Shown here: positions 2,036-20,766 of the stretch, piece after piece
Layout: each line of letters opens with the position of its first letter
Numbering within the stretch: position 1 is the stretch's first letter
From: Chitinophagales bacterium
GTDB lineage: Bacteria > Bacteroidota > Bacteroidia > Chitinophagales > CAIODY01
Length of the DNA stretch: 33,605 nt
Direction of reading: 5' to 3'
NCBI GenBank assembly: GCA_947449695.1
Contig: CANFST010000035.1
Coordinates: 1 to 33,605, forward strand
Notes under the pieces: generated by a model
The model's database searches: none
What the model saw: the letters and a program-made list of their open reading frames with translations, nothing else
What the model was told of the DNA's origin: nothing
Position numbers and translations under genes: made by a program

Positions 2036-2076
2036 GATTATATAATTTTTAGTTTGTTACGAATTTAATTGGATAA

Positions 2077-2107
2077 CGAAAATAATAGCAAATTTTCAAA
2101 ATGCAAA
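2077..2107 (-). promoter_or_regulatory. Putative Bacteroidota-type promoter of ssb
   Basis: On the minus strand a TTTG (2104-2107) is followed, after exactly 19 nt, by TATTTTCG (2077-2084). This matches the Bacteroidota -33/-7 consensus TTTG-N19-TAnnTTTG with one mismatch. It begins just after the stop of the upstream FN3 gene and lies about 41 nt before the ssb ATG. It would allow ssb to be transcribed independently of the long operon upstream. Confidence 0.5.
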
Positions 2108-2108
2108 A

Positions 2109-4100
2109 CTATTTTACCAAATGCCATTCGTTTGATGCTTGGCTTTCAGCATTTTTATTAGCGGCAATGATAGAATAAAACACCACTTCATCATTACTCA
2201 ATTTCGAATCGGTAAAAGTGAAAACAGTGCTTTTTACGCTGCCGATTTGTTCAGGTTTTTTGCCCGGTGTACGACGATAGATTTTGAATTCTGTAGCATT
2301 TTTAGCAATACATTCCCAAGATAATTTCACTGTATTATTTTCAAATGTTCCTTGCAAGTTGAACGGCGAAGCTAAGTTCAGATTCTCTTTTTTAACTTCG
2401 ACTATATTTGTTTTGCCATTTTTTTCATTCCCGTTATTTAAGAAAACTAATTGATACTGATAAGCAACATTTTGCTCAACAGTTGAATCGATAAAGCTTT
2501 TAGTTGTTAGGCTTAATACAGATTTATTAATTTTAACAAATGTTTTTTCATCTGATTTTTTGCGCAACAAGTCCATTCCAAAAACTCCATTTACCGATGA
2601 ATTAAAATTCCAACTCAACAAAAATCCTTTATCAATATTTGTTGCTGACAAAATTGTCATTGGCATTTGCAAATTCTTATTGCCATGAATTGCCTGAGTA
2701 ATAGCAGGTTTGCAGGCATCGCCCAAAATGTGACCATTAGTTTCTTGTTTGATGACATAACTATATGTAGCACCAGCAATCATATTTTTATCGTCATCCA
2801 AATAACTTTGAAGTGCTTCATTTTTGAAAGAAACGAAATCGCCCAACTGTTTAAACTCACCATCAATTCCTTCGCAACGATACACATAAAAGCCACGAAT
2901 GTTTTCGCCATTAGGAATCCAATACAACTGAACGCCTTTATCAGTGGGCTTTGCAAGCACTCTTAACGGAGGCAACGGTTTTTGTTTGCCGCTGCAAATT
3001 GCAAAAACTTTGTTAGTTGAAATTGTGCTTCTGCCCAATCTGTCAACCACTTTCAATGTATAAAAATAGCGTTGACCTGTTGCAATCGTTTTATCTATAT
3101 ATTGATTTTCCGTAGGAGAAACCGACATAATTTTCTGAAAGGGTTTTTCATAATCAATACCACGATAAATTTCAACAGCATCTAATTCTGTTGCATTAGG
3201 AATTTGCCAGGAAATTTTAATCGCTTCCAAACTATCCATAGTCATGGCTTTCAAGTCAGTTGGCAAATCGGCATCTTTTGCTAAAAGATTTGTCGACAAA
3301 ACTGTATCGGAGTGGATATTGTAATTGCCATAATTATTTGATGGAGAAATGCAATACCGATACATCGTTCCTTTATTCATCTTTTCATCTGTAAAAGCAT
3401 AAAAAATAGTGTCTTTCTTTTCATAAATATTTTTTGCAACAGCGTATTCATTCATTGTCCCTTTTTCTCCTTCACTTCTGAAAACCTTGAAATGATGAGG
3501 CTTTCTGTCTCTTACTGTTTTCCAGATGATAGTCGCTGCAATTCCATCTGTTGTTTGTTTCACATATTTTGGTTTGCGATAAGTCATCATTTCTGGATAA
3601 GCAACTTCGTTAGTTGTTAAACTTTCAATCACTCTTCCATTATCATCGACCAAAGAAATTTTGTAAACATATTTTGTGTTTTTGTTCGCTGTTTCATCTA
3701 ACAACAAAACTCCAAAACCAGCAGCTACATAATTAAAAGCTAAATGATGCTTTAGTGAATCCCAGCTTTTTGTGTGTTCAAATTTTAACCATGCATTTAA
3801 CAATTCAGGTTGCTGAACATCAACATTATAAGGCATTACAGCATTATTTGCTTTCTCAATAAATTCAGTTGATGTAGATGGTGTGGAGTAAGAAATTATT
3901 TTTTGAAAATTATTTTGCCCTGCCACCGAACGCTCCACAACATAAGCTGTAGCTCCTTTGTACGGATTTTTTTTATTTGCCGAATGCAATGTGTTTAGTA
4001 AATAGATCCCTTTTTCGCTGCCATAAGCATTTTTCTTTTGTGCAAAAGAAAATGAACTGATGAAACTGAAAAGCACTATGAATCCTATTTTTTTTATCAT
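2109..4100 (-). CDS. Exported fibronectin type III-like repeat protein (663 aa)
   Basis: The protein begins with a signal peptide (MIKKIGFIVLFSFISSFSFA, cut before QKK). The rest is a series of about six fibronectin type III-like domains of roughly 90 residues. Recurrent motifs are KISWQIPNATELDAVEIYRG, VQLYWIPNGENIRGFYVYRC, FLLSWNFNSSVNGVFGMDLL and VKLSWECIAKNATEFKIYRR, each followed by an F/Y-xY-x-L/V-type edge strand. FN3 arrays bind proteins or polysaccharides or act as spacers. No T9SS C-terminal sorting domain is visible; the protein ends in NEWHLVK. It starts 36 nt after the TANFOR-like giant with no terminator between them, so the two are probably cotranscribed and may act as partners in the envelope. 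The exact function is unknown. Confidence 0.8.
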   Translation of the reverse strand: MIKKIGFIVLFSFISSFSFAQKKNAYGSEKGIYLLNTLHSANKKNPYKGATAYVVERSVAGQNNFQKIISYSTPSTSTEFIEKANNAVMPYNVDVQQPELLNAWLKFEHTKSWDSLKHHLAFNYVAAGFGVLLLDETANKNTKYVYKISLVDDNGRVIESLTTNEVAYPEMMTYRKPKYVKQTTDGIAATIIWKTVRDRKPHHFKVFRSEGEKGTMNEYAVAKNIYEKKDTIFYAFTDEKMNKGTMYRYCISPSNNYGNYNIHSDTVLSTNLLAKDADLPTDLKAMTMDSLEAIKISWQIPNATELDAVEIYRGIDYEKPFQKIMSVSPTENQYIDKTIATGQRYFYTLKVVDRLGRSTISTNKVFAICSGKQKPLPPLRVLAKPTDKGVQLYWIPNGENIRGFYVYRCEGIDGEFKQLGDFVSFKNEALQSYLDDDKNMIAGATYSYVIKQETNGHILGDACKPAITQAIHGNKNLQMPMTILSATNIDKGFLLSWNFNSSVNGVFGMDLLRKKSDEKTFVKINKSVLSLTTKSFIDSTVEQNVAYQYQLVFLNNGNEKNGKTNIVEVKKENLNLASPFNLQGTFENNTVKLSWECIAKNATEFKIYRRTPGKKPEQIGSVKSTVFTFTDSKLSNDEVVFYSIIAANKNAESQASNEWHLVK

Positions 4101-4136
4101 AACCTATGTTTTATTTTTTTGAATTAGGAAATCTGT

Positions 4137-7100
4137 TTAATGAAAATGCAAATCTTTAAATTCTAATTTCACTCCATCACCTTTTTTGTAAGTAGCTGCT
4201 AATCTGATATCCATGCCCTTATTCCAGGAAGTGGTTTCACAAAACCAACCATCGCAATCACTATCACACAAACCCCCACCCACATAAGCAGAGCCTTGTA
4301 AATCTAAAAATACTTCACCTTGCATGGTGATGTTTGCATTCATAATTGCGCTCTTGGCATCGCTCATCATTTGAACTGGATTGATAGATGGTGATGGAAT
4401 ATTCAAATCAATATGTCCGTAAACACCAGCCCCACCAGTAGCTGACAAATCAGCACCACAACAAGCTATACCAATGCTTGCACCTGCACCTGCATGTATA
4501 TACACATAGGCTTGTCCACCTAAATCGTAACTAATTTTCGGATAATCCAAACTGATTCCTGTGTAAGAGTTTAAATGAATGGCATGCTCCAAAGTGCAAT
4601 GCACAATTGGGTCTAAATTGATATTGATTTGCGGAATAATCGGCACAGGCACTGCAGCTTCGGTGCAGAACAATGCACCTGTGTAGCTTCCTTTAGGGAA
4701 TGGGTCTGGCAAAACATTTTTATAGAAATATTGCGCCAACACATTTTGTATGTTGCCGCTAATCGTTCCTTTCCCAACGAAAAAACCACATTTACCACTG
4801 TTGACAGGAGAGTTTTGAATGTTAGTTGCAATTGCACTTCCAAACACATACCAATCGCCACCACCAAATTTCAAATCAACGTCGCTTGATAAATGGCAAT
4901 TACTTAAATCTTGTTCGATGTGCAAATTTCCGATTAAAGCTTTTTGCCCAAAGTCATAAGTGATGCTTCCAGAGCCTAATCCATCAACAGCCACATTCTT
5001 CACTCCCACTTTTTGATTGTCTGCTACCAAATCACCTTTCACAGTAAAGTTCATGTGCTTTTTCGCATCTGCAATTCCATCTAATCCAAATAAATCACCT
5101 TCAAAAGCAAAGTTGTTCCACTCAGTATTATTGCTCATAGTGTGCATGGAGCCGGTAATTTTTTCTAAACCTGAAGTTCCTCCACTGTAAACAAATTTTT
5201 GATTGGTGTTATCAACTGCAATAGTTGTTACTGCATTTGTTTTGGTTAGCGTAACTTCAAAAGCATAATTCACCGAAGAATTTTGGTCTTTAATTTTTCC
5301 ATGCAACACTAAATTATTGTTTTGAAATTCCTGATTAGACGAATTGAAATTCACAATCACTCCTTTGGTGTTTAAGCTTAAACCGCTGAATGGAGCATCA
5401 TTTGGCATCAATTTCAATTTCCCGTTGACAGCTTCATATCGCATTGTGAATGCATCAGTAAGTTCACTCATTTTCGGGATTTGCAAATCCAATTTTCCTC
5501 TGAAATTTATTGAACCAGTGGTAGCAAATGCCATTGCAGGATGAAATTTAGAAACGCTGTTTACTGTTACCCAAGGAGTAGTTTCGCTTAGCATAATTAC
5601 ATTTTCATCATCGCTTCCACGACTGTAAAGCGAAACATTTTTCAAATTGATGACATCATTGGAAGCTAAGCCAGGTAGGCCATTCAACGACGCAAGCACA
5701 TCTCCTTTTAACGGTAGCATCGAAAGTGACCAAGCACCATTTGTACCATAACCAACATCAAAACCAAATGAAACCGATGTATTGTTTTTATCTAAATTGA
5801 GAGGAATGTTACCGCCTAATTTTATTTTTTCGACATCATAAGTTCCATAAATAAATCGACTATAATCAATCAAAACATTTGTGGCTGGAACAGTTAAAGC
5901 CCCAGCAACAATGCTGCCTGTAGCATTTAATCCGTTAGAAGTTAATGTCCAGTCTTTCACTGCAAATTTCCATTTATCCATTGGGATAGTAAGGCTGCTA
6001 CCTGATGCACCATGTGTTTCATTTTTATCAATATCAATATTTCCAACATTCACATTGATGTCAGGTGAAGCTAATTGTGGAATGTTGGTGTGCAACATCG
6101 TGTTCAAATGCAAGCCGTCTTTATCAAATGTTGAACCTGCAACTTTTGCTTCACCAGCATATTTGTTGTGCAATAAATACCAAACATTTTTATAGTCCCA
6201 AGTACTTACTTTAAATGAACTGGTTAAAGAAGTTGGTGTTGTTCCATCGCTGTTGTATAAGTCCAAAAATTCAGCTACATCATAACCCAAAGTTTTTCCA
6301 TTATAGTTGGAGGTACTTATATACATTGAGTTTGCAGCATCCTTCACCGAAAAACCTTTTTTGAAATTTGCTCCGTCTATAAACAATGGGGACTGAATTT
6401 TCCCGGAATTATCACTCAATTTTTTTACAAACGCACCAAATGCAGAGTAAGAAAATCCACCATAACTATTGAACACTTTTATGTTTTTAGATTGTGTTGT
6501 ACTCCAGAAGTCATTCTTCGGAACAGCCAACGGAAGCCCATTGGCAGCTTTTTTTGAGGAAGCAACTATCTCAATATTTTCAAAATCGAAGTTGTTGTTT
6601 TTTATAGCATCGCTTGATGTAACCAACACACTTGGTATCGAAAAATAGTTATTCGCATTATTCACCAGCATACTTCCGCTAATGAAAATTTTACCAGTGT
6701 TTGGCCCAATTCCGAAAGTAATATTTTTTACTTCAATTGGGAAGCCAAGCAAAGATGATATATCCATCATGTCAAATCTTGAAACAGTTAATTTAATTTT
6801 TGCACCTTGATATGAACTCATATTCACAACTTTGGTGGAGCCAAAATAATTTTTCATTGTAGTTGGTGGAATGGCAACAATATTGTGTGTGCCATCGGCT
6901 GGAACGCCCATTAATTCGGCATCGCCATTAATATCTGTATAAGCAACGGGAACAGTAAATGGTAAATCTTCCACATAAATTTTCACATTCACAGCTGGCT
7001 GACCTTTATCTGTAACATGACACAAAACTTTTTTACAAGGTTTCAATTCGAAATTAAAAATGTTTGTGTACTTAGCATCATCATCAATACTCACAATTTT

Positions 7101-10100
7101 TGATTCGAAGCAACTGCCTGAAGTTTGTGATTCCAACTTCACTAAAAAAGTTTTTGCTGATGAAGCAAACTCTAATTTCGCTCTATGTACTGCATGTTTA
7201 GTCCCGTTGTTATCATTTTCCCATACAGTTTCATCAATTGAAGTTACTTGCTGTGAACCATTGATAATAGTAGCTTTTACAGGAATGTTATTCGCCACAT
7301 AGTCACTGCCAGGCGAATGAGCTTTGATAATGATGTGGTGCTGTCGATGTTTTAATTTGAAAGTAATTTTTGGTTGGTCGCCAAAGAAATTAATGTCTTG
7401 ATAAACTGTGAGAGGCTCGTATGTATCATTGTCATCAGGATAAGCTGTGAATTTTACCCCTTTGGCATAAGGCGCACTCATGGTGAGTGTTTGAGAAACC
7501 GGAAACAACGTTGGTACAAACATGTCCCCAACTTTTATTGAACCAAATGTTTCGTTGGTTTCACTCCAGCTAAAATCATCACCAACAACTACTTTTGCAT
7601 GAATAAAATTTCCGTCATCTGCATCTACTACTTTTCCTAAAACTGTTGCAGGCAACTCCATGAATATTTTACTTAACGCAGCTTTTTCACCACGTTTTAT
7701 TTTTGCGCCACCATTTACAAAAACCCCAGTTGGTGTAAATCCATTCTTACTAAAGAAAACTAATTTTCTTCCTGATTTTGTTTTGTCATTTGTATTCACA
7801 TTAAACTGAAACTTACCATTCATGCCAGTTTGCATCGAAGCTTCAGGCGTTGCACCATACTTTGAACAAATTGTTCCTTTAAACCATGCACCCGAAAAAC
7901 CATTGTTACCAAAAGTTGATTCGTTGACGGCAGCTTCAGGAATATCGTACACTTCAACCATTACACCTTGCAATGGATTAGTGCTGTAATTACTGTTTGG
8001 ATAAACAGCGCCCATTATAACTGGGGTTTGCGCCCAGGTATAAACAGATGTTGTTAGAGTAGTTTGATGTAAATCTTTTTGAGCGTTATATTCCTTGATG
8101 AATTGTGTGCTGTTCCAAAAAGTTTTTTGTTCGTTTTCATTATCATTAATAGCCGAAAATGCATTGATAATTTCGCTACTGTAATTGTCAAAACTTTGCT
8201 CAGTTGATTCAGTAAAATAATAATAACGGTCTTGTGCATTTTGCAAATCATTCAACACAACATGCTTAAATAAGAACTTTCCACCGCTTGTAGTCGTGGC
8301 TTCATCAATCACTTGATAAGTCAATCCATCAACGATTTCTTTTTTTGAAAGCCCGAATAATTTATTTTCGTTAATCGGAAAACCATCAGGCAATTTTTTA
8401 GGATTCACACACAAATAAACTCGTTCACCAGATTTTTTAATAGGGTTTAAAATTCCCCCAACATCATTTATTCCTAAATCGGTATTCACTGCTTTTAATC
8501 CATCCACTTGCACATTTGCTTCACGAACATTAGCTAACATGTCGCCCAAATCGTAGTTGTATCCCGGCTCTACGAGCAAATCATTATCAGGGCTATAATA
8601 ATATGGGCTTTGTACTTTGATTCGTAACACATAATATTCCTTTCCGCTTACAGGTTTTGCATTTCCATTTTTATCATAAAAATTGCCAGTTGAATTTTGA
8701 TATTGATTTACGCCGTTTTCACCCAATTGATAAAAAGTAGTGTTGCCAGTATTTAATGAAAATTGACCATCACCATCTGTAGTGCCAGCCGCAAAATCAT
8801 TGCTGTTGCCGTTTATAGGATATACAATGCCATCAGCATCGTTTTTAATTACCCATTGTCCAACTAATTTTATTGGCATATTCGCCAGTGGTTTTGCATT
8901 AGTCATGTTGGGTGAACCATCATCATTTGCAAAAACTCTTTTCAATTTTCCACTCACTGCTAACGACATTTGATAGGGAGCTAAATCCATTTCCTGCTCA
9001 ACATAATTTCCCATATTGATGTCAAACTGAAAATCTTGAAAGCAATCATTAAACGGGCAACTATTCCAAGAGAATTTGGTTGGTTGATACGCTACATTTT
9101 TTCCGTCAGTTGGTTTTGCATAGATGTAATAATTATCGCCTGCGCTCATTTCATCAGCTGGATATATGTTTTGAATTAAATCGTTAAAAGTCACACTACT
9201 ATTCATTTTGGCAGTTTTCTTAGCATAAACCAAATACTGACGTTTGTCAATAGTAATCAAAGAAGTTTTTCCATCGCTGCTGCACTCATTATCAGGTGCA
9301 CCAGAAGATTTTTTATATTTCAAAACATACACATCCACATCATAATTGTATGCACCTTGAATAGGAGTTATCTTTCCTGTGTAATAATTCTTTTGCTCAG
9401 CAAAATTTTTCAAATTCACTTTTAATGAATAATTTTTTGCTTGCTGATACACATTGGCATCGTCTTTCAAAATTTTTCCTTGAATAAAAAAAACTGTTCC
9501 GCCTGAATAATAATAAGGACTCCCATATTTCACCCATAAACCAGTTGCATAAGCCAAATGATGAGATTTTCCATCGGTTGCTTGTGCTGCGCCTAAAGAA
9601 AAAGTATCTAAAATTTTTGATTGAAATGAAGAAGGAATATCAAAATGAAAATTGCCAGCATCATCAGTTTTTGTGTGGGCAATTATTGCACCGCAATTAC
9701 TTGTTTGTGGATATTTCGGGTCGGGCTTGGTAGATAAAAGTGGAATAGATGAATTGCCCAATGAAGCCAAACTATCTACCATTGCATACACATATTTCCC
9801 TTTACTATCTTTACTTACAGCACGTTTCACTTTATATACTTCGCAGATTGAATACACTTCAACTAACTTAATAGAAGCATTTTTTAAAGGATAATTTTCA
9901 GGGCGATTATTATCATCTGTTGATGAATTTCCAAAACCAAATTTCTTGTTTCCTACTTTTTTCTTCTCTACAAAAAAATAATTTGCCTTGCCTGAAATGC
10001 TTGAATTTCCAGTATTAGTTTGAATATCTGATTTTGAAATTTGTGAAGAATCTTTCCCTGAAGATTTATAATCAAACGTGCAAACTTCACTCACCCCATC

Positions 10101-10913
10101 ATTTTTAAAATACACTTTATCATTCGGGTCAGTTGCCTTCACCCTCCATGCATATTTTTTTCCAGCCCTCAATTCAGGGTCAATTGCATTGTATAAATAA
10201 GTGGGTGAATTGATAGTTTTTTCAAAATAAGGAATCGTGTTTGTCGCAAAAGCATCATTAGGATTTTGTCCTTCATACAATTCTAACACAGTCAATGTAA
10301 ATTGAGTATTGATAGGAGCTCCAGGGCTATTCACCCAACTAAAAATTAGTGATTGCGGATTTTGTCCGTTCACAGCTCTATCACACATTGGCGCAATTAG
10401 TCGTGGAGGATTTACATCGGAAACGTGAATCGGGGCAGAACACTGCTCACTTCCAATTGGCTGACGAGTTAAGTAATCATAAGCCTGAAAACAAATTTTG
10501 TAATTACCTTCTGGTATTCCGTTTGTTCGAATTATAGTTTGCGTTGAAACACCAGCAACATCCACATAATCCCAATCAAAATAATCCCTCAAATCATCAC
10601 CAGTCATACGTTTCGGAATATTCGCTTGTAATTCAAAAGGTTTAGAGGGATAGTAATTATCTTTTGTCTTGATGCTTACGCCATTGTCGCCAATTACGCT
10701 TCCCTGAAAATAAATTTGAAAGTTGGTGCCAGCATTGCCCAACGCTGTAACAGTTATCACCGCTCTATTTTCGTAAATTAAATAGTCGGTAATTTTTGTA
10801 GAATAAGGTGGCACAATAACCGTGTTGACGGTAACACGATTGGGTGTTTGTGCTTTGATAAAAATTAAAAACGAAAAAAACAGAACTGCTGTGAATAGTA
10901 GAATTCTTTTCAT
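4137..10913 (-). CDS. Giant TANFOR-like secreted/envelope protein (2258 aa)
   Basis: A signal peptide covers about residues 1-21 (ending FLIFIKAQ). The mature N-terminus, VNTVIVPPYSTKITDYL, resembles the TANFOR domain named after Tannerella forsythia, and the module runs to about residue 170. FN3/Ig-like and carboxypeptidase-regulatory-like beta-sandwich repeats follow, for example PLQGVMVEVYDIPE near 970, GKVVDADDGNFIHAKV near 1090 and GQPAVNVKIYVEDLP near 1300. From about 1400 to 2100 the sequence becomes a long run of short alternating beta-strands rich in Gly, Asn and Leu. The C-terminus has Cys pairs (CDSDCDGWFC) and ends KLEFKDLHFH, with no T9SS type A or type B domain. It follows the sigma/anti-sigma/sensor genes by 53 nt and precedes the FN3 protein by 36 nt. 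Its role is unknown; a structural surface or periplasmic protein is the likeliest reading. Confidence 0.78.
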   Translation of the reverse strand: MKRILLFTAVLFFSFLIFIKAQTPNRVTVNTVIVPPYSTKITDYLIYENRAVITVTALGNAGTNFQIYFQGSVIGDNGVSIKTKDNYYPSKPFELQANIPKRMTGDDLRDYFDWDYVDVAGVSTQTIIRTNGIPEGNYKICFQAYDYLTRQPIGSEQCSAPIHVSDVNPPRLIAPMCDRAVNGQNPQSLIFSWVNSPGAPINTQFTLTVLELYEGQNPNDAFATNTIPYFEKTINSPTYLYNAIDPELRAGKKYAWRVKATDPNDKVYFKNDGVSEVCTFDYKSSGKDSSQISKSDIQTNTGNSSISGKANYFFVEKKKVGNKKFGFGNSSTDDNNRPENYPLKNASIKLVEVYSICEVYKVKRAVSKDSKGKYVYAMVDSLASLGNSSIPLLSTKPDPKYPQTSNCGAIIAHTKTDDAGNFHFDIPSSFQSKILDTFSLGAAQATDGKSHHLAYATGLWVKYGSPYYYSGGTVFFIQGKILKDDANVYQQAKNYSLKVNLKNFAEQKNYYTGKITPIQGAYNYDVDVYVLKYKKSSGAPDNECSSDGKTSLITIDKRQYLVYAKKTAKMNSSVTFNDLIQNIYPADEMSAGDNYYIYAKPTDGKNVAYQPTKFSWNSCPFNDCFQDFQFDINMGNYVEQEMDLAPYQMSLAVSGKLKRVFANDDGSPNMTNAKPLANMPIKLVGQWVIKNDADGIVYPINGNSNDFAAGTTDGDGQFSLNTGNTTFYQLGENGVNQYQNSTGNFYDKNGNAKPVSGKEYYVLRIKVQSPYYYSPDNDLLVEPGYNYDLGDMLANVREANVQVDGLKAVNTDLGINDVGGILNPIKKSGERVYLCVNPKKLPDGFPINENKLFGLSKKEIVDGLTYQVIDEATTTSGGKFLFKHVVLNDLQNAQDRYYYFTESTEQSFDNYSSEIINAFSAINDNENEQKTFWNSTQFIKEYNAQKDLHQTTLTTSVYTWAQTPVIMGAVYPNSNYSTNPLQGVMVEVYDIPEAAVNESTFGNNGFSGAWFKGTICSKYGATPEASMQTGMNGKFQFNVNTNDKTKSGRKLVFFSKNGFTPTGVFVNGGAKIKRGEKAALSKIFMELPATVLGKVVDADDGNFIHAKVVVGDDFSWSETNETFGSIKVGDMFVPTLFPVSQTLTMSAPYAKGVKFTAYPDDNDTYEPLTVYQDINFFGDQPKITFKLKHRQHHIIIKAHSPGSDYVANNIPVKATIINGSQQVTSIDETVWENDNNGTKHAVHRAKLEFASSAKTFLVKLESQTSGSCFESKIVSIDDDAKYTNIFNFELKPCKKVLCHVTDKGQPAVNVKIYVEDLPFTVPVAYTDINGDAELMGVPADGTHNIVAIPPTTMKNYFGSTKVVNMSSYQGAKIKLTVSRFDMMDISSLLGFPIEVKNITFGIGPNTGKIFISGSMLVNNANNYFSIPSVLVTSSDAIKNNNFDFENIEIVASSKKAANGLPLAVPKNDFWSTTQSKNIKVFNSYGGFSYSAFGAFVKKLSDNSGKIQSPLFIDGANFKKGFSVKDAANSMYISTSNYNGKTLGYDVAEFLDLYNSDGTTPTSLTSSFKVSTWDYKNVWYLLHNKYAGEAKVAGSTFDKDGLHLNTMLHTNIPQLASPDINVNVGNIDIDKNETHGASGSSLTIPMDKWKFAVKDWTLTSNGLNATGSIVAGALTVPATNVLIDYSRFIYGTYDVEKIKLGGNIPLNLDKNNTSVSFGFDVGYGTNGAWSLSMLPLKGDVLASLNGLPGLASNDVINLKNVSLYSRGSDDENVIMLSETTPWVTVNSVSKFHPAMAFATTGSINFRGKLDLQIPKMSELTDAFTMRYEAVNGKLKLMPNDAPFSGLSLNTKGVIVNFNSSNQEFQNNNLVLHGKIKDQNSSVNYAFEVTLTKTNAVTTIAVDNTNQKFVYSGGTSGLEKITGSMHTMSNNTEWNNFAFEGDLFGLDGIADAKKHMNFTVKGDLVADNQKVGVKNVAVDGLGSGSITYDFGQKALIGNLHIEQDLSNCHLSSDVDLKFGGGDWYVFGSAIATNIQNSPVNSGKCGFFVGKGTISGNIQNVLAQYFYKNVLPDPFPKGSYTGALFCTEAAVPVPIIPQININLDPIVHCTLEHAIHLNSYTGISLDYPKISYDLGGQAYVYIHAGAGASIGIACCGADLSATGGAGVYGHIDLNIPSPSINPVQMMSDAKSAIMNANITMQGEVFLDLQGSAYVGGGLCDSDCDGWFCETTSWNKGMDIRLAATYKKGDGVKLEFKDLHFH

Positions 10914-10966
10914 GATGAAAAAATTTTCACCAAAATAAGAATATTAGTCTACAAAAGAAACGATAA

Positions 10967-11431
10967 TTATTCCCCCTTTTGAAGTTCTTTCAATCGTTGC
11001 ACTAATAAAAGCGTCCATTGTCTTTCTGCTCGGTAGAGCTTTACAATTTTTCGGTTGGAAATTATTTTTTTGAACTCAATAAAATATTTTTTCTTCAAAT
11101 CCAATTCGTGTTGTTCCATCACAAAACTTTCTGAAATTGCTTTTTCAATTTCAGCTTCAGTCATGTTATCGTAATTCTTTTTGGTGTCGTGCAACAAATC
11201 TTTTTTGTCTTGTCTGGTTGCTTCTAGCTCTTTTCGATATTGATTGTAAACAGGCCAAAATGCTTGCGATTCGGCAGGTGTTAAGTCCATTTTCTTGGTA
11301 ATGAAAGCAACTTTTTCCGCTTCCAATTTTTCTTTTACGCTGCTGTTTAATTCACCATCTTGGGCAAAAGAAATTTTGCAAAACGAAAAAATCGTTGCAA
11401 TTAAAATCAGTATGTAGTTCTTAATCTTCAA
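10967..11431 (-). CDS. Spy/LTXXQ-like periplasmic helical protein, likely envelope-stress sensor
   Basis: This 154-residue protein has a signal peptide (MKIKNYILILIATIFSFCKI, then SFAQ). The mature part is almost entirely helical and charged, with MDLTPAESQAFWPVYNQYRK near residues 48-67, a variant of the LTxxQ motif of the Spy/CpxP family. In Bacteroidota such proteins next to ECF sigma genes are often annotated as sensors of ECF-type sigma factors. The family binds or senses misfolded envelope proteins. The start is TTG at 11431; no ATG allows the signal peptide to be kept. The gap to the upstream repeat-containing membrane protein is only 14 nt. Position third in a sigma/anti-sigma cassette supports a regulatory role. 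The sensing ligand cannot be read from the sequence. Confidence 0.75.
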   Translation of the reverse strand: MKIKNYILILIATIFSFCKISFAQDGELNSSVKEKLEAEKVAFITKKMDLTPAESQAFWPVYNQYRKELEATRQDKKDLLHDTKKNYDNMTEAEIEKAISESFVMEQHELDLKKKYFIEFKKIISNRKIVKLYRAERQWTLLLVQRLKELQKGE

Positions 11432-11445
11432 TGTTGTTTTCTTAA

Positions 11446-12345
11446 TTAAATCGCATCATTCAAAGTTGATTCATCTACTTCATTTTCCAAATATTCTTTC
11501 AACTCTTTTTTCTCTGACTCTTTTTTGTTGTCAATTTGCGGAATCACTTTTTTTGTTGTAGATGCTTTTGCAACAGGATTTTCCATCAATTGCAAATCTT
11601 CCACTTCTTCCGCATGATTTTGCAAATATGCGTTAATATCTTGAGCTGTTAAAGCCTGTTCAGTATTCTGATTCGGTTGATTGAAAAATATTGCAACCCC
11701 AATCAACAAAGCTGCAACCGAAGCTGCTGCTGCAAATTTGAAAGTAGCTTTGCTGAACAATGAAACTACTTTTCCTTTTTCCGATTGTTTTACTTTAGCT
11801 AAAATCTCTTCAACGTTGTTTTCAAAGTAATTTTCGGGAACGCTGAACATATTGATTTTGCTCACTTCTGAAGCTTCTTCCTCTATGCCAATCAATTTGG
11901 TTTGCGCCAAAATCTTATCCGCTAAATTGTCGAAATAGTTTTCAGGTACATTAAAAGCATTTACTTTACTGAATTCCAACGCTTTCTCTTCTTCGCTGAC
12001 TAATTTGGTTTGTGCCAAAATTTCATCAGCTAATGTTTCAAAATAATTTTCTGGAACGCTGAAACTATTGATTTTACTATAATCTAAAACAGGCTCATCA
12101 AACTTCGTCTGCGGTAAATTTGGAGCAAATTCCTTGAAATAATTTTCAGGTGAATTAAAATGATTCAACTTACTGAAAGGCAAAATGTTTTCAGTTTCCA
12201 AAGCCGATTTTGCTTTTTGCAAATGCAAATCAACTTGACTTTCAAAGTAACCTTGCGGCACTTGAAAACCATTGCGGTTGCCAATTGCAGCCACAATGGG
12301 TGAAATTTCGTTTATTTCTTTCAATATGGAATCACTCGTGTTCAT
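11446..12345 (-). CDS. Single-pass membrane protein with five VPENYFE repeats, probable anti-sigma factor
   Basis: This 299-residue protein has no signal peptide and one hydrophobic helix at about residues 203-221 (FKFAAAASVAALLIGVAIFF). The N-terminal 200 residues should therefore be cytoplasmic and the last 75 or so periplasmic. The cytoplasmic part holds five repeats of the pattern N-x-F-x-VPENYFE-x-L-A-D-x-I-L-A-x-T-K, with the Tyr at residues 33, 69, 101, 137 and 173. No zinc-binding HxxxCxxC anti-sigma motif is present. Single copies of an F-x-VPxxYFE motif are known in Bacteroidota proteins encoded after ECF sigma genes. It lies 49 nt after the sigma gene and 14 nt before the Spy-like gene, which makes it the natural candidate for sequestering the sigma factor. 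The periplasmic tail is acidic (NHAEEVEDLQL, ENEVDESTL). Confidence 0.7.
   Translation of the reverse strand: MNTSDSILKEINEISPIVAAIGNRNGFQVPQGYFESQVDLHLQKAKSALETENILPFSKLNHFNSPENYFKEFAPNLPQTKFDEPVLDYSKINSFSVPENYFETLADEILAQTKLVSEEEKALEFSKVNAFNVPENYFDNLADKILAQTKLIGIEEEASEVSKINMFSVPENYFENNVEEILAKVKQSEKGKVVSLFSKATFKFAAAASVAALLIGVAIFFNQPNQNTEQALTAQDINAYLQNHAEEVEDLQLMENPVAKASTTKKVIPQIDNKKESEKKELKEYLENEVDESTLNDAI
11788..12267 (-). repeat. Five in-frame VPENYFE repeats (about 108 nt period)
   Basis: Five tandem units encode FQVPQGYFE, FNSPENYFK, FSVPENYFE, FNVPENYFD and FSVPENYFE. They are spaced 36, 32, 36 and 36 residues apart. Units 3 and 4 are the most alike, sharing the downstream ILAQTKL block, which points to recent duplication within the gene. 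Confidence 0.85.
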
Positions 12346-12394
12346 TTCTTCTTTATCTATTCTACTTGCTATGACTTTTTTTTATGGTTTTCGT

Positions 12395-12937
12395 TTAATC
12401 ATTTTCTTTTACAAACAGTTCTATTTTTTTCACTGCATGGTGATAACTGGCTTTCAATGCTCCTTCGCTAGTACCTAACACTTTGCTCATTTCTTCGTAA
12501 GGCATTTCATCATAGTAACGTAAATTGAAAACTAATTTTTGTTTTTCGGGCAAAGTCAAAATGGCTTTCTGCAATTTCATTTCCATCTGATTGCCATCAA
12601 AATACTTATCACTGCTCAATTTATTGGCTAAATGATTTTCCATATCATCCAATGAATAAGAAAATTTCTTTTGTTTGTTGGCCAAAAAAGTGAGGCATTC
12701 ATTTGTACCAATTCGATACAACCAAGTGTACAACTGACTTTCTTCTCTAAAGTTTTCCAAGCCTTTCCATGCTTTGATGAAAGCATTTTGCAAAACATCA
12801 TTCGCATCATCATGGTCTAAAACCATACGACGGATGTGATAATAAAGTCGTTGCTGATATTTTACAACCAACGCCTTGAAAGCCATATCGCGGCTTGCAG
12901 GAATTTTATATTGCAATAAAATTTCTTCGTCGGTCAT
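12395..12937 (-). CDS. ECF RNA polymerase sigma factor
   Basis: This 180-residue protein is a sigma-70 family factor of the ECF group and directs RNA polymerase to an alternative set of promoters. Region 2 spans about residues 20-90, with the core-binding and -10-recognition segment around DHDDANDVLQNAFIKAWKGL and the Trp-rich YTWLYRIGTNECL. Region 4 spans about 125-175 (LPEKQKLVFNLRYYDEMPYE, then the helix-turn-helix LGTSEGALKASYHHAVKKI). Regions 1.1 and 3 are absent, as expected. The ATG at 12935-12937 lies 11 nt after the transketolase stop, and the probable anti-sigma gene follows by 49 nt. The regulon cannot be stated. The neighbouring Spy-like, TANFOR and FN3 genes are the obvious candidates for autoregulated targets, or else the assembly problem it senses. 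Confidence 0.95.
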   Translation of the reverse strand: MTDEEILLQYKIPASRDMAFKALVVKYQQRLYYHIRRMVLDHDDANDVLQNAFIKAWKGLENFREESQLYTWLYRIGTNECLTFLANKQKKFSYSLDDMENHLANKLSSDKYFDGNQMEMKLQKAILTLPEKQKLVFNLRYYDEMPYEEMSKVLGTSEGALKASYHHAVKKIELFVKEND

Positions 12938-12948
12938 TTAGGTTTAGG

Positions 12949-13905
12949 TTAGTTCTTTCTTGCAATCACTTTCAATGCTGCGCTAACAATTTGCGGTGTA
13001 TCCAAACCATATTTCTGCATCAATTCTTCAGGTGTTCCGCTTTCGCCAAATGAATCATTTACTGCAATCATTTCCATAGGAGCAGGATTGTTTAAAGCTA
13101 AAACCTGCGCTACTGCATCACCCAAACCGCCATTGCGCTGATGTTCTTCCGCTGTAACCAAACATTTTGTTTTTGCAACGGATTTTAAGACCGCCTCTTC
13201 GTCAAAAGGTTTAATGGTGTGCATGTTGATGATTTCAACGCTAACATTTTGTTCGGCTAAAATCTTTCCAGCTTCAATCGCTTTCCATACCAAATGTCCG
13301 CAAGCAATGATGGTTACATCAGTGCCTTCACATAAAATTTGTGCTTTACCGATTTCAAATTTTTGTGTAGTGAAGTTGGCACATTTAGGTCTGCCAAATC
13401 TTAAATAAACTGGTCCATGATATTCAGCAATTGCAAGCGTTGCAGCTTTAGTTTGATTGTAGTCGGCAGGAACAATTACCGTCATGTTGGGTAGCATACG
13501 CATTAAACCAATGTCTTCTAGAATCTGGTGTGTTGCGCCATCTTCACCCAACGTAAGCCCAGCATGGCTTGCACAGATTTTTACATTTTTATCTGAATAA
13601 GCAATAGATTGACGAATTTGGTCGTAAACCCTGCCAGTACTGAAATTGGCGAATGTGCCTGTGAAAGGAATTTTGCCGCCTATAGTCAAACCAGCAGCAA
13701 CGCCCATCATATTCGCTTCTGCAATGCCGCATTGCACAAAGCGTTCAGGAAAATCTTTAATAAAAGCATTCATTTTTAATGAACCTGCCAAATCAGCGGT
13801 AAGTGCCACTACATTAGGATTTATTTTGCCTAATTCGTGTAAGCCATCGCCAAATCCTCCACGGGTTTCACGTTCGTCTATTTTTTGAATATCGGTAACT
13901 TTCAT
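12949..13905 (-). CDS. Transketolase C-terminal subunit (split transketolase)
   Basis: This 318-residue protein matches the C-terminal half of transketolase: the pyrimidine-binding domain (about residues 10-170) and the C-terminal domain (about 190-310). Transketolase moves two-carbon ketol units between sugar phosphates in the pentose phosphate pathway using thiamine diphosphate. The Glu of GIAEANMM (E63) is the residue that activates the ThDP aminopyrimidine. Other conserved pieces are [34 protein letters not shown] and the active-site-side RFGRP. The N-terminal ThDP-diphosphate subunit is normally encoded just upstream in organisms with split enzymes, but here the upstream side is a 384-nt intergenic stretch and a divergent gene. 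The partner must lie elsewhere. The sigma gene follows after 11 nt, so this gene heads the long minus-strand run. Confidence 0.92.
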
Positions 13906-14289: not shown

Positions 14290-17200
14290 ATGCGCAAAAT
14301 ATACTACTACCTCATTGGCTTGTTTTTACTTTTTAATACCGCATCCAAAGCGCAGGCTATTCATGCATGTTTTAGTGCAGGCGGTGGACAAACATTTCCT
14401 GTAACGCAATGCGGTGGATTTGTTTTACCCCTAACTAATTGTTCGACTGGTACTTATGATTCAGCAGTTTGGAAATTGCAAATAAGTAGTAATTATAATT
14501 GCACAGGCCCTTGGGGAATCACTTTTGTTACCACAAAGGGTGGAGCACAAGCAACTGCTGGAACTGGATATTCGTTAAGTGTAGATGGTTCTTATAAGGT
14601 TTGTTTATTGATTTATAATAGAACTACTGGTCAAGTTGATTCAAGCTGCCAATGTATTGCAGTCGTTTATCCGTTTCCAATTCCTAATTTTTCAGTATCC
14701 GATTCATTTCATTGTGGAGGATTGACAACTACTTTTACGCCACAAATTCAATCGGGTACAACCCCTTATGGTCCCATCACTTGGTATTTTGGAGATAATT
14801 TAACTCAGACTACTAACACTGTATCAAATGTAACACATACTTATGCTTGTAAAAATTCTAATCCACCATGCTATTCAGTGACCATATCAGTAACTGATGC
14901 TCATGGTTGTTCTAAAGTAGTAACTAAGCCATGTTTAGTAAATGTGCCATGTAAACCATCGGCTACAGTGTCTGTAACGGGTGGCAGTGCTTGCTCAACT
15001 CCAACATCAATAACCTTTCATGCAACCCCATCAGGATTATATGGGCATGGAATTTATTCTTGGTGGTTTCCACCAGGAAGTACTCCTCCATTTACCCCAA
15101 CCTTTGGTCCATCAAGTTCAGTAGGCAATGTAACGCAACCTTTTTCAACTTATGGTTGCAAAAATGTAATTCTTGCAATTAAAGATTCAGCAACTGGTTG
15201 CAGCGATACAGCTAATGTTAACAATGCGGTTTGTATTCAAGGAATTACTGTAACAAGTTTATCTTCTAATTTAAACCATGTATGTTGTAGTCAGCCTTTT
15301 GCGATTACTTTTAATGCAAGTTCAAATCCGGTTTCAACCCCTCCGTGCGCAATTGTTGGAACCCTTGTGGCTACTCCGGTTGGAGGTGGCGCCACGATTG
15401 TATTAGGGCAAATTTCTTCCACCTCACCAAAGACTGTTTCATTGCCTTGTACATCCTCTGCGGCGGTAACCTATAATATCTGTTTTCAAAATAGCACAGT
15501 AACTAATCTATGTAATAATTGCACACTGAATTACACTGGCTGTTTGCAGGTTACAGTTAATCCATCCCCAACTGCTCAAATTAATTTAACACCACCAACA
15601 TTAGCCAGTTATTGTTCGAAAGGGCACCAATTTTGTTTTAATGCCAGTACCCCAAGTAATAATTTGCCAGGTTGTTCATATGCTTGGTATCTTGGAAGTA
15701 CCTCAAATACTGCATTGAGCAATACATCAACATTTTGTTACACATTCCCCAATTTTGGCACTTATAAAATTTATTTAAAGGTATGTCAAAGTGCTTTAAA
15801 TGGTGGATGTTGTGCATTGGATTCAATTGTTGTTTCACAAAATCCACCAACTGGTAGTTTTATAGTTTCCAATACTCGTGGTTGTGATACTTTGTGTGCT
15901 AAATTTACCGTATCCCCAAGCACCGATTCATTATATATTTATAATTTTGGTGATGGCACAATTGTAACATCGAATCAGGATACAATGCATCATTGTTTTC
16001 ATAGTAATTTGGATACTTGTTATACTGTTACTATTATCCATATTGCCCATTCTTTGGGTGGATTTGTTTGCGTTGATACATTAAGACAAAAGGGAATTAT
16101 AAAAATTGGGCATAAAATGATTCCAAGTATTACCATGAGTCCGCCAATACAATGTTTGGTGCATAAACAAGCTTGTGTTTACGTTTATCCAAATAATCCA
16201 GGATTAATTCCACCAACAGGTGCATCGAATAGTACTTGTTTATCAAAAGCTTGTCATTGGTATTTCACAAAACCTTTTGACCCTAATCCTATTGTTCAAA
16301 GTTATGTGTGTGATAGCCCGAAAGTGTGTTTTGACGATACTGGACATTTTGATGCACATTATGTGATTATTAATAATACTTGTCCTGATACAGTTGTGGT
16401 TCATAATGCAGTAGTAATTAATGGTGTTTTAGGTGATTTTAAAGATTCATTGCATTGTGCTTCAAATGGAACTTTAACAAATTTTTGTGTTACAATTAAG
16501 TCGAATATAAAAGTATTTCCAACCCCAACTAATCCTCATGATTCAACTCATATTAAATTTATAGTAAATAATAATACTTGCGGAAGCCCTACTATTTATA
16601 ATTTTGCTGTTGCTCCAAATGGACCACCACCAATATTTAATCATTGTTTTTGCACTGCCGGTAGTTACACTATCACTATGATTACAAAAAATTCTGCAAC
16701 GGGCTGTCCTCCTGACACAACCATTAAAACTATTACTGTTGCTTCTTATCATGCTGTAATGAATTTAAGTCCAATTTCGACCAATCCAATTGGATGCTTT
16801 GTTTACCCTTATGGATTTTGTTTTACTTCTATTGGTTCTTCACCAGCTTTACCTGATAAAATCACATGGTCATTTGGCGATGGTAAAACTTTAAATAATG
16901 CGACTGCCCCTTGTCATACTTATGATTCATGTGGCACATATATTGTAAAATTAAGATTAGCCGATAATTCAGGTACTTGCAGCGATTCGACTCAATTAAC
17001 CGTTGCTCTGCATGATATTTACCCAAATATAACAGCTTCATTGGTATCACCTTGTAGCAACTGTTATGTATTCCATAATAGCACTGTTTTCTGTGGTGGA
17101 ACACCAGGAACTACTACTATTCATTTTTATAATATTGTTGGAGGGGCTACTATCCCTGATATTGTAATTCATGGTGCTTGGACAAGTTATACATTTTGTA

Positions 17201-20200
17201 GCCCTGCTGTAGTTAATTCAGCTTTAGCAACAATAACAGATAGTTTAGGATGTATAAAAACATTTAATGTTGGTCTGCCGGGAATTGTAGGCATTGTGCC
17301 ATGTTTAGCAGGTGTAACTGATACAGTAATATGTGTAGGCGCTACATTAAATATGAGTGATTGTGTAACAGGTTATTATGTTTATAACAGAGCATGGACA
17401 TTTTCTACAGGGGCTTGTAATCCAAATGGCACGCCTGTTTCTACCACATCTACTTATAGCCATACTTTTACAAGTAATGGGTATTATTATGTCAATTTAC
17501 ACCAAAGTAATCCATTTGGATGTTCGAGTGATACTTGTGTAAGAATTCATGTGCAAAATCCTATTGCTGCTTTTAAGAGCAGAGATACAATTCCATGTCC
17601 TGGTAGTTTCGATACTCTTATTAATAAATCAACTGGTGCATACAATACTTTAATTGTCACAATGAGTGCACCATCGATTAATTTTTATCAAACATTCACA
17701 TACAATAGAGTTATCGGTGTATCAAATATTCCAGATACAGTTCTCCTTCCATTAGGGTTTCCTGCTGATTATAATATTTGTTGGAAGGTAATTAGTTCAA
17801 CAGGATGTTCTGATTCTGTTTGTAGAAATTTACATGTGGCAGGACCAGTTGGTCATTTAAATTGCAGTAATGTTTATGTTTGTGTTGGCGATTCTGTTTG
17901 TTGCACATTAACAACCAATTCGATTGGAAATCCTTTTGTTAGGTTTTCTGATGGTACTTATGAATACTTAAGCTATAATTCATCTGGCATTTATAATTTC
18001 TGCCATCGATATACATTCCCAGGCCATCAATTGGTACAATCATTTATAGATGATGGTGCAGGATGCAGTTACCCTTTATTTGACACAGTAAATGTGGATG
18101 GTCCTATTGTGAATTTTTCATGGGCACCCTATAAAAAAGATTTTTGTGGTTCAGCGAATGTAGGAATGTTAGATTCATCAATTGCTTCTTTATATCCAAT
18201 AGATACTTCAAAATATAAGTGGATTATTTTTAATTCAAATGGTAGTGTTTTTGCAACTTACTCACACAGAAATCCTGTTATAAATATTTCAACACCTGGT
18301 TCTTATTCAATTATGGAAATAGTGAAAAGTACTTTTGGTTGCTCGGACACACTGCGAAAATCATTCATCAATGTTTATCCTTATCCAATTGCTCAGTTTA
18401 ATGCAAATCCAGATACAATTTGTATAAATCAATGTGTTAATTACCTAAACACTTCTATAAATCAAGATAGTGTTGGGGGATATAAATGGTTGCTTAATTA
18501 TCCTTCGGCCTCTGTTTATAGCACGGCAACTAATTATCAATATTGCTATGCAACCACTGGTTCTTTTCAATCGGTATTAATTGATAGTAGTGTACATGGT
18601 TGTATTGATACAAGTAGTATTCAAACAATAATTGTTTTGCCAAGCCTAACTGCTGGTTTTACACAAAGCGATGATACAATTTGTGCGTTAAGTGGGAATG
18701 TATTTTTCCATAGTACATCAATTCCAAATTCAGGTATAACATGGCAATGGAATTTTGGCGATGGTTCTACTATTTTAGGACCTGGCAATTTTCCAAATCC
18801 TTCTCATTTTTTCAATATGCAACCTGGGTCAAAAGACACATGCTTTGCAGTTAAATTAATAATCAGAAATTCATCAGGTTGTATTGATAGTTCAGTGCAT
18901 TATGTTTGTTTGTCCAACGTGCCAACTGCCGGGTTGATAGTTTCTAATAAAATTGGTTGCAGTCCATTAGTCACTTCATTTACTGATAACAGCATTTCAT
19001 TAGAACCAATTGCTTCTTATGTAATTGATTTTGGAGATGGTTCTCCACTTTACAATTCTTCTACAGCTCCTTCTGCATATGTGCATAGTTATATTAATAT
19101 AAGTCATACTAATACAGCTACTTATGTTGCTACTTATACTATCACTTCATTGTTTGGTTGTAAAAGCAGTTTGACTGATACATTTATAGTTTATCCAGTT
19201 CCATCAGTTTCGTTTATTCAAGACAATGATTCACTTTGTGGAAATGCAGTGGTGGTAAATTTTAGTAGTACCTCAACACCAAATTCGGGAGTTAATTTTA
19301 CCTGGAATTGGGGTGATGCCACAGCAAATACTTCTGGTAATTTCCCATCTACTGCACATGTATTTCATTTACCAGGAGGATTGGGAACAGCTTGTTATCC
19401 AACTCAATTAACTATTACAAGTCCGCATGGATGTCTTGATTCATTCAATCATACCATTTGTATTTCATCTGTTCCTATAGCGCATTTAACAATAGGGCCT
19501 AATGCCAGCTGCAATCCATTATCTACAACGTTTACAGATTCAAGTAATTCATTGGTACCAATTGGTAATTTCCTAATTGATTTTGGCGATGCATCAGCTA
19601 ACTTCAATTCACCAACTGCTCCAAATGGAGTAACGCATGCCTATTCTAACTTGAGCCACTCTGTTTCAGCAAAATATGTTGCTAATTATACTATCACTAC
19701 TCAATTTGGTTGTTCGCAAACTATAAAAGATACTTTTAGTGTATATCCAATTCCGGTAGCATGCTTAATTGCAACAGATTCAGTGTGTCCGCAAGTAAGT
19801 ACACCAATTGGTTGTGTTGCGCAAGCTGGGTTGCAATATCATTGGTATCATCCGATTGGATCAAATATTTTTAGTCCAAATGATACCACTGCAAATCCGA
19901 ATGTAGCTCCAGCAGTATCAACTACTTATAGTTTAGCAGTTAAGAATCAATGGGGATGTGTTGATACGGACTCTGTTTATATTTTTGTAAAAGGCTTATT
20001 GATTCCTTATGCCGGCAGAGATACTAATATTTGTGCTGGTGGCGTAGTTCATTTGTTTGCACAAGGAGGATTAAGTTATGTATGGCAACAATTAAGCGAT
20101 TGGTCAATTGTGAGTGATAGCGCAAGTTTCCATATTGCACCTAAAGTTTCAAATACCTATGAAGTAACAATCAGTGGTGATTGTAATACTGATTCAGTTA

Positions 20201-20766
20201 AAGTGCATGTAAATGTTTTCCCAACTCCATCTGTCACTATTAATCCTACAGAGGCAACTATTATAGCCGGACAAAAATATAACGTTACAGCAGTGCCTTC
20301 TGGTTTAGGTTTATTGCAATGGCATCCTGATTATAATATTAATTGCGATACCTGCAGAAGCGTAATTATGTCGCCAGATATCAATACAACTTATACTGTT
20401 GTTTTAACAGATGTTTATGGTTGTATAGATTCTACCGAAATCACTATTTATGTTTTATGTGATAAACAAAATTCTATTTATGTGCCTAATGCTTTCGAAC
20501 CAAGCGTTGGCGCATCAAGTCGTAACGCATATTTTTATGTGCAAGGAACAGGTGTGAAAGAATTAACTTATTTAAGGGTATTTAATAGATGGGGAGCTGA
20601 AGTATTTAATGCAGAACATGTTCCAATTAATAAGCCAGAAGCAGGTTGGGATGGTACTTTCAATGGATCTCCTGTAGGCATTGATGTTTATATGTACCAA
20701 ATGCAAGTAGAATGCAGCAATGGTAATTTGTTTCCAATTTCAGGGAATGTTACTATTATTAAATAA
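14290..20766 (+). CDS. Giant Cys-rich PKD-domain surface protein with type B T9SS sorting domain (2158 aa)
   Basis: A signal peptide covers about residues 1-22 (MRKIYYYLIGLFLLFNTASK, then AQA). The body is a long array of PKD and PKD-like Ig domains. FGDG-type signatures are seen near residue 165 (WYFGDN), 555 (YNFGDG), 860 (WSFGDG), 1485 (WNFGDG), 1580 (IDFGDG), 1675 (WNWGDA) and 1765 (IDFGDA). The protein is rich in Cys, about 14 in the first 235 residues, often in GCS/GC-D contexts at domain ends. The last 100 residues (from about 2060) form the gliding-motility-associated CHU_C domain: VPNAFEP, then LRVFNRWGAEVF, then GWDGTFNGSPVGIDVYMYQM. This is the type B T9SS signal, so the protein should be exported by T9SS and attached to or released from the surface. 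The usual PNxDGxND loop is altered. Likely roles are adhesion, gliding or matrix; no catalytic domain is visible. The gene stands alone, with ATG at 14290. Confidence 0.88.
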   Translation: MRKIYYYLIGLFLLFNTASKAQAIHACFSAGGGQTFPVTQCGGFVLPLTNCSTGTYDSAVWKLQISSNYNCTGPWGITFVTTKGGAQATAGTGYSLSVDGSYKVCLLIYNRTTGQVDSSCQCIAVVYPFPIPNFSVSDSFHCGGLTTTFTPQIQSGTTPYGPITWYFGDNLTQTTNTVSNVTHTYACKNSNPPCYSVTISVTDAHGCSKVVTKPCLVNVPCKPSATVSVTGGSACSTPTSITFHATPSGLYGHGIYSWWFPPGSTPPFTPTFGPSSSVGNVTQPFSTYGCKNVILAIKDSATGCSDTANVNNAVCIQGITVTSLSSNLNHVCCSQPFAITFNASSNPVSTPPCAIVGTLVATPVGGGATIVLGQISSTSPKTVSLPCTSSAAVTYNICFQNSTVTNLCNNCTLNYTGCLQVTVNPSPTAQINLTPPTLASYCSKGHQFCFNASTPSNNLPGCSYAWYLGSTSNTALSNTSTFCYTFPNFGTYKIYLKVCQSALNGGCCALDSIVVSQNPPTGSFIVSNTRGCDTLCAKFTVSPSTDSLYIYNFGDGTIVTSNQDTMHHCFHSNLDTCYTVTIIHIAHSLGGFVCVDTLRQKGIIKIGHKMIPSITMSPPIQCLVHKQACVYVYPNNPGLIPPTGASNSTCLSKACHWYFTKPFDPNPIVQSYVCDSPKVCFDDTGHFDAHYVIINNTCPDTVVVHNAVVINGVLGDFKDSLHCASNGTLTNFCVTIKSNIKVFPTPTNPHDSTHIKFIVNNNTCGSPTIYNFAVAPNGPPPIFNHCFCTAGSYTITMITKNSATGCPPDTTIKTITVASYHAVMNLSPISTNPIGCFVYPYGFCFTSIGSSPALPDKITWSFGDGKTLNNATAPCHTYDSCGTYIVKLRLADNSGTCSDSTQLTVALHDIYPNITASLVSPCSNCYVFHNSTVFCGGTPGTTTIHFYNIVGGATIPDIVIHGAWTSYTFCSPAVVNSALATITDSLGCIKTFNVGLPGIVGIVPCLAGVTDTVICVGATLNMSDCVTGYYVYNRAWTFSTGACNPNGTPVSTTSTYSHTFTSNGYYYVNLHQSNPFGCSSDTCVRIHVQNPIAAFKSRDTIPCPGSFDTLINKSTGAYNTLIVTMSAPSINFYQTFTYNRVIGVSNIPDTVLLPLGFPADYNICWKVISSTGCSDSVCRNLHVAGPVGHLNCSNVYVCVGDSVCCTLTTNSIGNPFVRFSDGTYEYLSYNSSGIYNFCHRYTFPGHQLVQSFIDDGAGCSYPLFDTVNVDGPIVNFSWAPYKKDFCGSANVGMLDSSIASLYPIDTSKYKWIIFNSNGSVFATYSHRNPVINISTPGSYSIMEIVKSTFGCSDTLRKSFINVYPYPIAQFNANPDTICINQCVNYLNTSINQDSVGGYKWLLNYPSASVYSTATNYQYCYATTGSFQSVLIDSSVHGCIDTSSIQTIIVLPSLTAGFTQSDDTICALSGNVFFHSTSIPNSGITWQWNFGDGSTILGPGNFPNPSHFFNMQPGSKDTCFAVKLIIRNSSGCIDSSVHYVCLSNVPTAGLIVSNKIGCSPLVTSFTDNSISLEPIASYVIDFGDGSPLYNSSTAPSAYVHSYINISHTNTATYVATYTITSLFGCKSSLTDTFIVYPVPSVSFIQDNDSLCGNAVVVNFSSTSTPNSGVNFTWNWGDATANTSGNFPSTAHVFHLPGGLGTACYPTQLTITSPHGCLDSFNHTICISSVPIAHLTIGPNASCNPLSTTFTDSSNSLVPIGNFLIDFGDASANFNSPTAPNGVTHAYSNLSHSVSAKYVANYTITTQFGCSQTIKDTFSVYPIPVACLIATDSVCPQVSTPIGCVAQAGLQYHWYHPIGSNIFSPNDTTANPNVAPAVSTTYSLAVKNQWGCVDTDSVYIFVKGLLIPYAGRDTNICAGGVVHLFAQGGLSYVWQQLSDWSIVSDSASFHIAPKVSNTYEVTISGDCNTDSVKVHVNVFPTPSVTINPTEATIIAGQKYNVTAVPSGLGLLQWHPDYNINCDTCRSVIMSPDINTTYTVVLTDVYGCIDSTEITIYVLCDKQNSIYVPNAFEPSVGASSRNAYFYVQGTGVKELTYLRVFNRWGAEVFNAEHVPINKPEAGWDGTFNGSPVGIDVYMYQMQVECSNGNLFPISGNVTIIK
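18646..19755 (+). repeat. Two tandem copies of a 185-residue double-PKD unit
   Basis: Residues 1453-1637 and 1638-1822 of the giant align end to end with an offset of about 185. Each copy has an F-x-Q-x-D-D/N-D-x-x-C opening, an S-x-P-N-S-G / W-N-x-G-D core, a C-x-S/x-S-VP junction, an S-N/x-C-x-P-L-x-x-x-F-T-D second domain with I-D-F-G-D, and a VYPxP end. The boundary falls at about 19200. This is a two-domain duplication inside the PKD array. Confidence 0.75.

Follow-up and report, generated by a model that had tools for sequence, protein, structure and literature searches.

An ECF sigma operon and a TANFOR-type giant with its FN3 partner as two putative units joined by insertion in a Chitinophagales genome

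Closest described systems and layout of the gene run

Genes for an ECF sigma factor, a membrane anti-sigma factor and a periplasmic sensor form one operon in the Cnr system (CnrH, CnrY and CnrX of Cupriavidus metallidurans), and a three-gene unit of the same logic lies in the DNA analyzed here, encoding an ECF sigma factor, a partner with one transmembrane segment (TM) and a candidate periplasmic sensor. A membrane-held ECF sigma factor, proposed for this unit, and a periplasmic modulator are features shared also with the RpoE-RseA-RseB system. The CnrH-CnrY contact is cited in PMC7406223, where coevolution work indicates that a class I anti-sigma domain is encoded nearby for only 6% of the ECF sigma factors of Bacteroidetes, the control of the remaining ones being left open. 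TANFOR proteins, and the association of FN3 neighbours with them, are already known (PMC7073777).

The window, i.e. the whole stretch of 33,605 nt analyzed, makes up the entire contig C35 in a draft genome (G000) of 3.14 Mb and 99.4% completeness. Five open reading frames, whose coordinates were rechecked, follow one another on the minus strand with gaps of 49, 14, 53 and 36 nt (Table 1). A scan of the window sequence located no terminator-like site in any intergenic gap of the run, terminator-like sites being found overall at chance level (10 found vs. 8.7 expected). Both the layout and the lack of terminators had been reported by the initial annotation, which interpreted the five genes as a single module. 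The list of genes given there missed tktC, which ends 11 nt upstream of the sigma factor start on the same strand; the co-directional run thus exceeds five genes, and is not specific to them. The spacer between tktC and the sigma gene measures 11 nt in the window (12938-12948), about 176 nt in the sister genome G001 and 84 nt in the sister genome G002 (comparison with loci L008 and L009), and a sigma promoter residing within the spacer therefore cannot be conserved.

The first three genes make up a real, conserved operon for a sigma factor, a one-TM protein and a periplasmic protein, to which the genes encoding the giant and the FN3 protein do not appear to belong. As judged from sequence comparisons, the five genes appear to be two unrelated conserved units in contact, not one machine. 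They are called unit 1 and unit 2 below.

Table 1. Features of the gene run and of the insertion boundaries (window coordinates).
Feature	Position	Strand	Basis or remarks
Transketolase C-terminal half (tktC)	12949-13905	-	conserved upstream neighbour of the trio in the family of the host and much of the order
ECF sigma factor, 180 aa, first gene of unit 1	12395-12937	-	Pfam Sigma70_r2 and Sigma70_r4_2
Candidate anti-sigma factor, 299 aa, unit 1	11446-12345	-	five VPxxYF motifs, one TM, acidic tail
Spy/LTXXQ-like exported protein, 154 aa, candidate periplasmic sensor, unit 1	10967-11431	-	relatives, weak LTXXQ
Upstream insertion boundary	10914-10966	-	homology to sisters stops at Spy stop codon (DNA alignment)
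Giant exported protein, 2258 aa, unit 2, inserted	4137-10913	-	TANFOR-type N-terminus, all-beta C-terminal 900 residues
Exported FN3-repeat protein, 663 aa, partner of the giant, unit 2, inserted	2109-4100	-	FN3 by family profile
Downstream insertion boundary	2036-2108	-	homology to the Spy-ssb spacer of the sisters restarts at FN3 stop codon

The ECF sigma, VPxxYF and Spy-like trio

The first gene encodes an ECF sigma factor, as annotated: its product matches Sigma70_r2 at 3e-16 and Sigma70_r4_2 at 1e-14 in Pfam, and features the sigma2 and sigma4 domains only, the composition which distinguishes ECF factors. The product of the second gene had been described as a repeat-containing membrane protein, and five P-x-x-Y-F motifs and a single TM are indeed present. 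The motifs are found at residues 30, 66, 98, 134 and 170, every copy being N-terminal to the TM (approximately residues 204-220). The segment preceding the TM is rich in lysine, which fits an N-in topology. Under this predicted topology, the protein exhibits what is expected of an anti-sigma factor, i.e. a cytoplasmic segment followed by one TM, encoded beside an ECF gene. In 29 relatives, the N-terminal parts contain 68 copies of the pattern P-x-[NDGEKSA]-[YF]-F, vs. 0.5 in shuffled sequences; a looser VPxxYF-type motif was detected in 39 of 41 proteins (0-7 copies), invariably N-terminal to the TM. Copy number varies strongly from family to family, six or seven copies being found at loci L074, L083, L205 and L208, one in others. 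The 29 members scanned match no Pfam family, and none of them matches a class I anti-sigma domain (ASDI/zinc-finger) in Pfam. Gene order and the arrangement of the motifs before the TM were both seen in 41 loci, gene order alone in 23 class-wide loci. We infer that the VPxxYF motifs of this candidate anti-sigma factor may bind the sigma factor.

The third protein had been regarded as a sensor of the Spy type. The assignment is weak: LTXXQ similarity was detected in 5 of 24 relatives (best value 2e-4), and the window protein itself gave no match. A PDB sequence search returned no usable match for the Spy-like family, which is marked by a conserved FWPxYN motif. Relatives of the Spy-like gene are present in 169 of the 198 genomes of the order. 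The trio is found in the same gene order at 41 of 43 loci examined within the order (open reading frames being chosen automatically) and at all 23 loci fetched class-wide, and the profile of the one-TM protein has matches in 35 of the 36 other listed genomes of the class. In the neighbourhoods of the order, the genes downstream of the trio vary, and are often on the opposite strand. Unit 1 is best regarded as a core operon, found across the class, with a putative role in envelope stress.

Topology and gene order suggest how the trio may work. The cytoplasmic motifs of the VPxxYF protein most likely tether the ECF sigma factor to the inner membrane, and the C-terminal tail of this protein most likely receives a signal on the state of the periplasm from the Spy-like protein. 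Unit 1 can be further distinguished from the systems mentioned above. CnrY has two short sigma-binding helices, the partner in unit 1 a repeated VPxxYF motif (0-7 copies); no metal-resistance genes follow unit 1, unlike in Cnr, and its sensor has only weak LTXXQ similarity. In contrast to RpoE-RseA-RseB, unit 1 has no recognised class I anti-sigma domain, and its sensor no match to the RseB family. The three-part sigma logic is a known one, of the Cnr type, on which the VPxxYF partner protein is a new variation. No prior description of the trio was found in the open literature (subscription papers not covered). In light of the 6% figure for class I domains (PMC7406223), the VPxxYF protein could plausibly be the kind of anti-sigma factor that has been missing for Bacteroidota.

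An insertion between the trio and ssb

In the sister genomes, the order tktC, sigma, anti-sigma, Spy-like, ssb, gldE is found with 58-97% protein identity (90% and 61% for the anti-sigma protein in G001 and G002, respectively), and neither a giant nor an FN3 gene intervenes. Whole-genome searches of G001 and G002, which are drafts 96% and 83% complete, detected no giant. In two further genomes of the family of the host (G004 and G005) the trio is followed by another gene, and no giant or FN3 neighbour was seen at the other trio loci examined in the order. An ssb promoter-like site, TTTG-N19-TATTTTCG, is retained directly behind the FN3 gene of the window, and a site of the same TTTG-N19-TAnnTTTG type lies in the Spy-ssb spacer of G001. 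Both sisters carry an A/T-rich hairpin after the Spy-like gene, which is missing in the window. The inserted pair and the host have the same G+C content, so that composition does not point to recent transfer; in the short stretches inspected at both junctions, mobile-element repeats were not observed. Judging from the DNA alignments (boundaries in Table 1), the giant and FN3 genes appear to be a clean, lineage-specific insertion, flanked by the stop codon of the Spy-like gene and the promoter-like site of ssb. The best explanation overall, which we hold to be quite probable, is that two independent units met via insertion, and that monitoring of the giant is not what the sigma switch evolved for.

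This explanation is compatible with a later regulatory capture, the pair having been inserted by chance and being now read through from the tktC/sigma operon, to be raised with envelope stress in this host. From the sequence, read-through would be the most credible remaining link between the sigma factor and the giant, and we consider it possible, if on the doubtful side. The 53-nt gap before the giant has no strong promoter, and the post-Spy hairpins of both sisters are gone; short gaps and a lost hairpin make co-transcription in the lineage of the host possible. What speaks against it is a weak TTTC-N19-TATTTTGG site ahead of the giant, a site as good being present in 108 of 300 shuffles.

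Alternatively, the pair could be ancestral in the lineage of the host, and have been lost in the sisters and other members of the family. The presence of giants in another genus of the same family (G003) would agree with this, but the trio occurs with no such pair in G001, G002, G004 and G005, and likewise at the other trio loci examined in the order. The pair would have to have been lost independently several times, and we deem an ancestral origin unlikely.

The giant, the FN3 protein and the barrel loci

Searched singly in Pfam and NCBIfam, the giant, FN3 and Spy-like proteins match little. The annotation of the giant as a TANFOR protein is moderately sustained by a domain-level match to TIGR02542 (E 1e-10), the score of which, 41.8 bits, is below the curated cut-off of 67. 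Similarly, the FN3 protein alone has no Pfam FN3 match, and its assignment holds at the level of the family, the profile of which matches titin and RPTP FN3 chains with E values down to 5e-36. Both proteins have signal-like N-terminal sequences and, in agreement with the annotation, both lack a T9SS sorting domain of type A or B (Pfam, NCBIfam). The plus strand of the window encodes two other giants, at 14290-20766 a PKD protein, in which the CHU_C sorting domain is marginal, and at 25337-31999 a protein with SBBP/SprB repeats, in which the T9SS type B sorting domain is clear.

TANFOR-type giants were found in 20 of the 198 genomes of the order. In the other carriers the Spy gene resides on a different contig or at least 45 kb away (17 of 19 with both positions listed), and in none of the other giant neighbourhoods examined does the trio flank the giant. 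Giants are associated instead with FN3 genes and with a gene encoding a barrel protein of about 570 residues. Complete sets of the three genes number 18 in the order sample, and of 20 further barrel loci 15 have a giant. When one genome per species was scanned, 78 loci with a barrel were obtained, 74 of them with a giant and 57 with both giant and FN3, many of the loci without a full set being short contigs. ECF matches were obtained at a few barrel loci (L148, L176, L192 and L193), with no Spy or anti-sigma match there.

The barrel protein belongs to no Pfam or NCBIfam family, and a PDB sequence search gave nothing usable. As is typical of outer-membrane barrels, its last residue is mostly aromatic, and its model features about 24 strands (pLDDT 83.5), with MtrB as best structural match (Z 19.3, rmsd 5.6, 446 residues aligned), followed by porins and ushers. 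The predicted large-barrel fold is shared with MtrB, the porin sheath of the Mtr complex, and with the FimD/PapC ushers (FimD, Z 15.6). Unlike these, the barrel of the set has no identified MtrA-type or pilus partner, identity being about 10%. The family (loci L118-L195, 78 in all) is widespread in Bacteroidota, and found also in MAGs labelled Ignavibacteria, Chlorobiota, Gemmatimonadetes and Armatimonadetes; the carriers from the last two phyla are MAGs by label, and their contigs may be misbinned.

The closest relatives of the window giant and of the window FN3 protein are common to both, residing at L148, L184, L186, L170 and L174, all of which are barrel-giant-FN3 loci, and are closer to the window pair than the two paralogous sets of the host itself. 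Giant and FN3 genes were hence probably inherited as a pair. The C-terminal half of the giant is homologous to giants of barrel-giant-FN3 loci, and conservation of the last 900 residues extends to at least 10 giants of other genomes. The AF2 model of the C-terminal part is all-beta (pLDDT 78, pTM 0.54). By VIA-align, the last 310 residues or so align to barrels (MtrB, Z 12.4, with many ties near 11), and the Foldseek matches of the C-terminal model, among them LptD, ApoB and ushers, all had low TM-scores of about 0.1. With caution, a barrel-like sheet may be assumed for the modelled last 310 residues, which we do not take as a match to any family.

The window pair features the TANFOR-type giant and the FN3 partner of the set, and no adjacent gene for a barrel of about 570 aa. 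Two barrels only are encoded in the host genome, on contigs C1 and C2, each beside another giant. The complete set on C1 (L014, 3-13177) is one gene away from another PKD giant, which is 55% identical to the PKD protein of the window. Co-occurrence and predicted fold suggest that giant and FN3 protein probably reach the envelope by Sec, and probably assemble at the outer membrane with the large beta-barrel as a surface structure. In the window the pair would have been gained without a barrel of its own, and may use the barrel of either of the other host sets, rely on the barrel-like C-terminus of the giant, or be non-functional.

The giant could also be read as a polymorphic toxin of the TANFOR class (PMC7073777), with the toxin in the C-terminus and immunity downstream. 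It resembles such toxins in its N-terminal TANFOR-type region, signal-like N-terminus and FN3 neighbour, and in the presence of T9SS in the genome, SprA being encoded by the host; according to PMC7073777, the neighbourhoods of TANFOR genes are enriched in FN3 proteins and substrates of T9SS. No toxin family was matched in the giant (Pfam, NCBIfam), and its C-terminus is all-beta and conserved, unlike that of a polymorphic toxin, which has a variable tip. Downstream are the exported FN3 gene, ssb and gldE, none of which is immunity-like, and the set found in relatives includes an outer-membrane barrel, which has no mention in the sections of PMC7073777 covered here. We consider the toxin reading highly unlikely. 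The giant at L053 (G167, 6874-12495), found with a barrel and without FN3, has a divergent C-terminal end that could be a toxin tip, with no match to a Pfam toxin family. No mention of a conserved barrel as a TANFOR partner was found in these sections or in other open literature, nor was a prior description of the barrel set (subscription papers not covered). The linkage of barrel, giant and FN3 genes suggests that many TANFOR giants are envelope structures with a dedicated barrel, and not merely toxin carriers.

The circuit originally proposed, in which the sigma factor senses how the giant folds or assembles and adjusts the five-gene operon in return, could draw on the common strand and the short, terminator-free gaps, yet the trio is found class-wide without the giant, giants occur without the trio, and the giant/FN3 insertion is lineage-specific, which makes it a very improbable reading. 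The sisters, which continue from the trio to ssb and gldE and have no giant genome-wide, do not bear it out, and the search for the same five-gene order in relatives, indicated as a check, revealed that these genes are rarely neighbours, trio and giant loci being separate.

An operon-like layout in a single genome can thus be a lineage-specific juxtaposition. The VPxxYF protein lies between the ECF gene and the periplasmic gene at every class-wide locus examined, which makes the question of ECF control directly testable. More tentatively, and as a conjunction that we would not expect to hold in full, the VPxxYF proteins may be a class-wide anti-sigma family of Bacteroidota which binds ECF factors via tandem VPxxYF motifs, possibly several sigmas per protein, and fills the gap left by class I domains, and the barrel-giant-FN3 sets an undescribed envelope system, found across Bacteroidota and neighbouring phyla, in which an MtrB-like large barrel would sheathe or translocate a giant with its FN3 partner.
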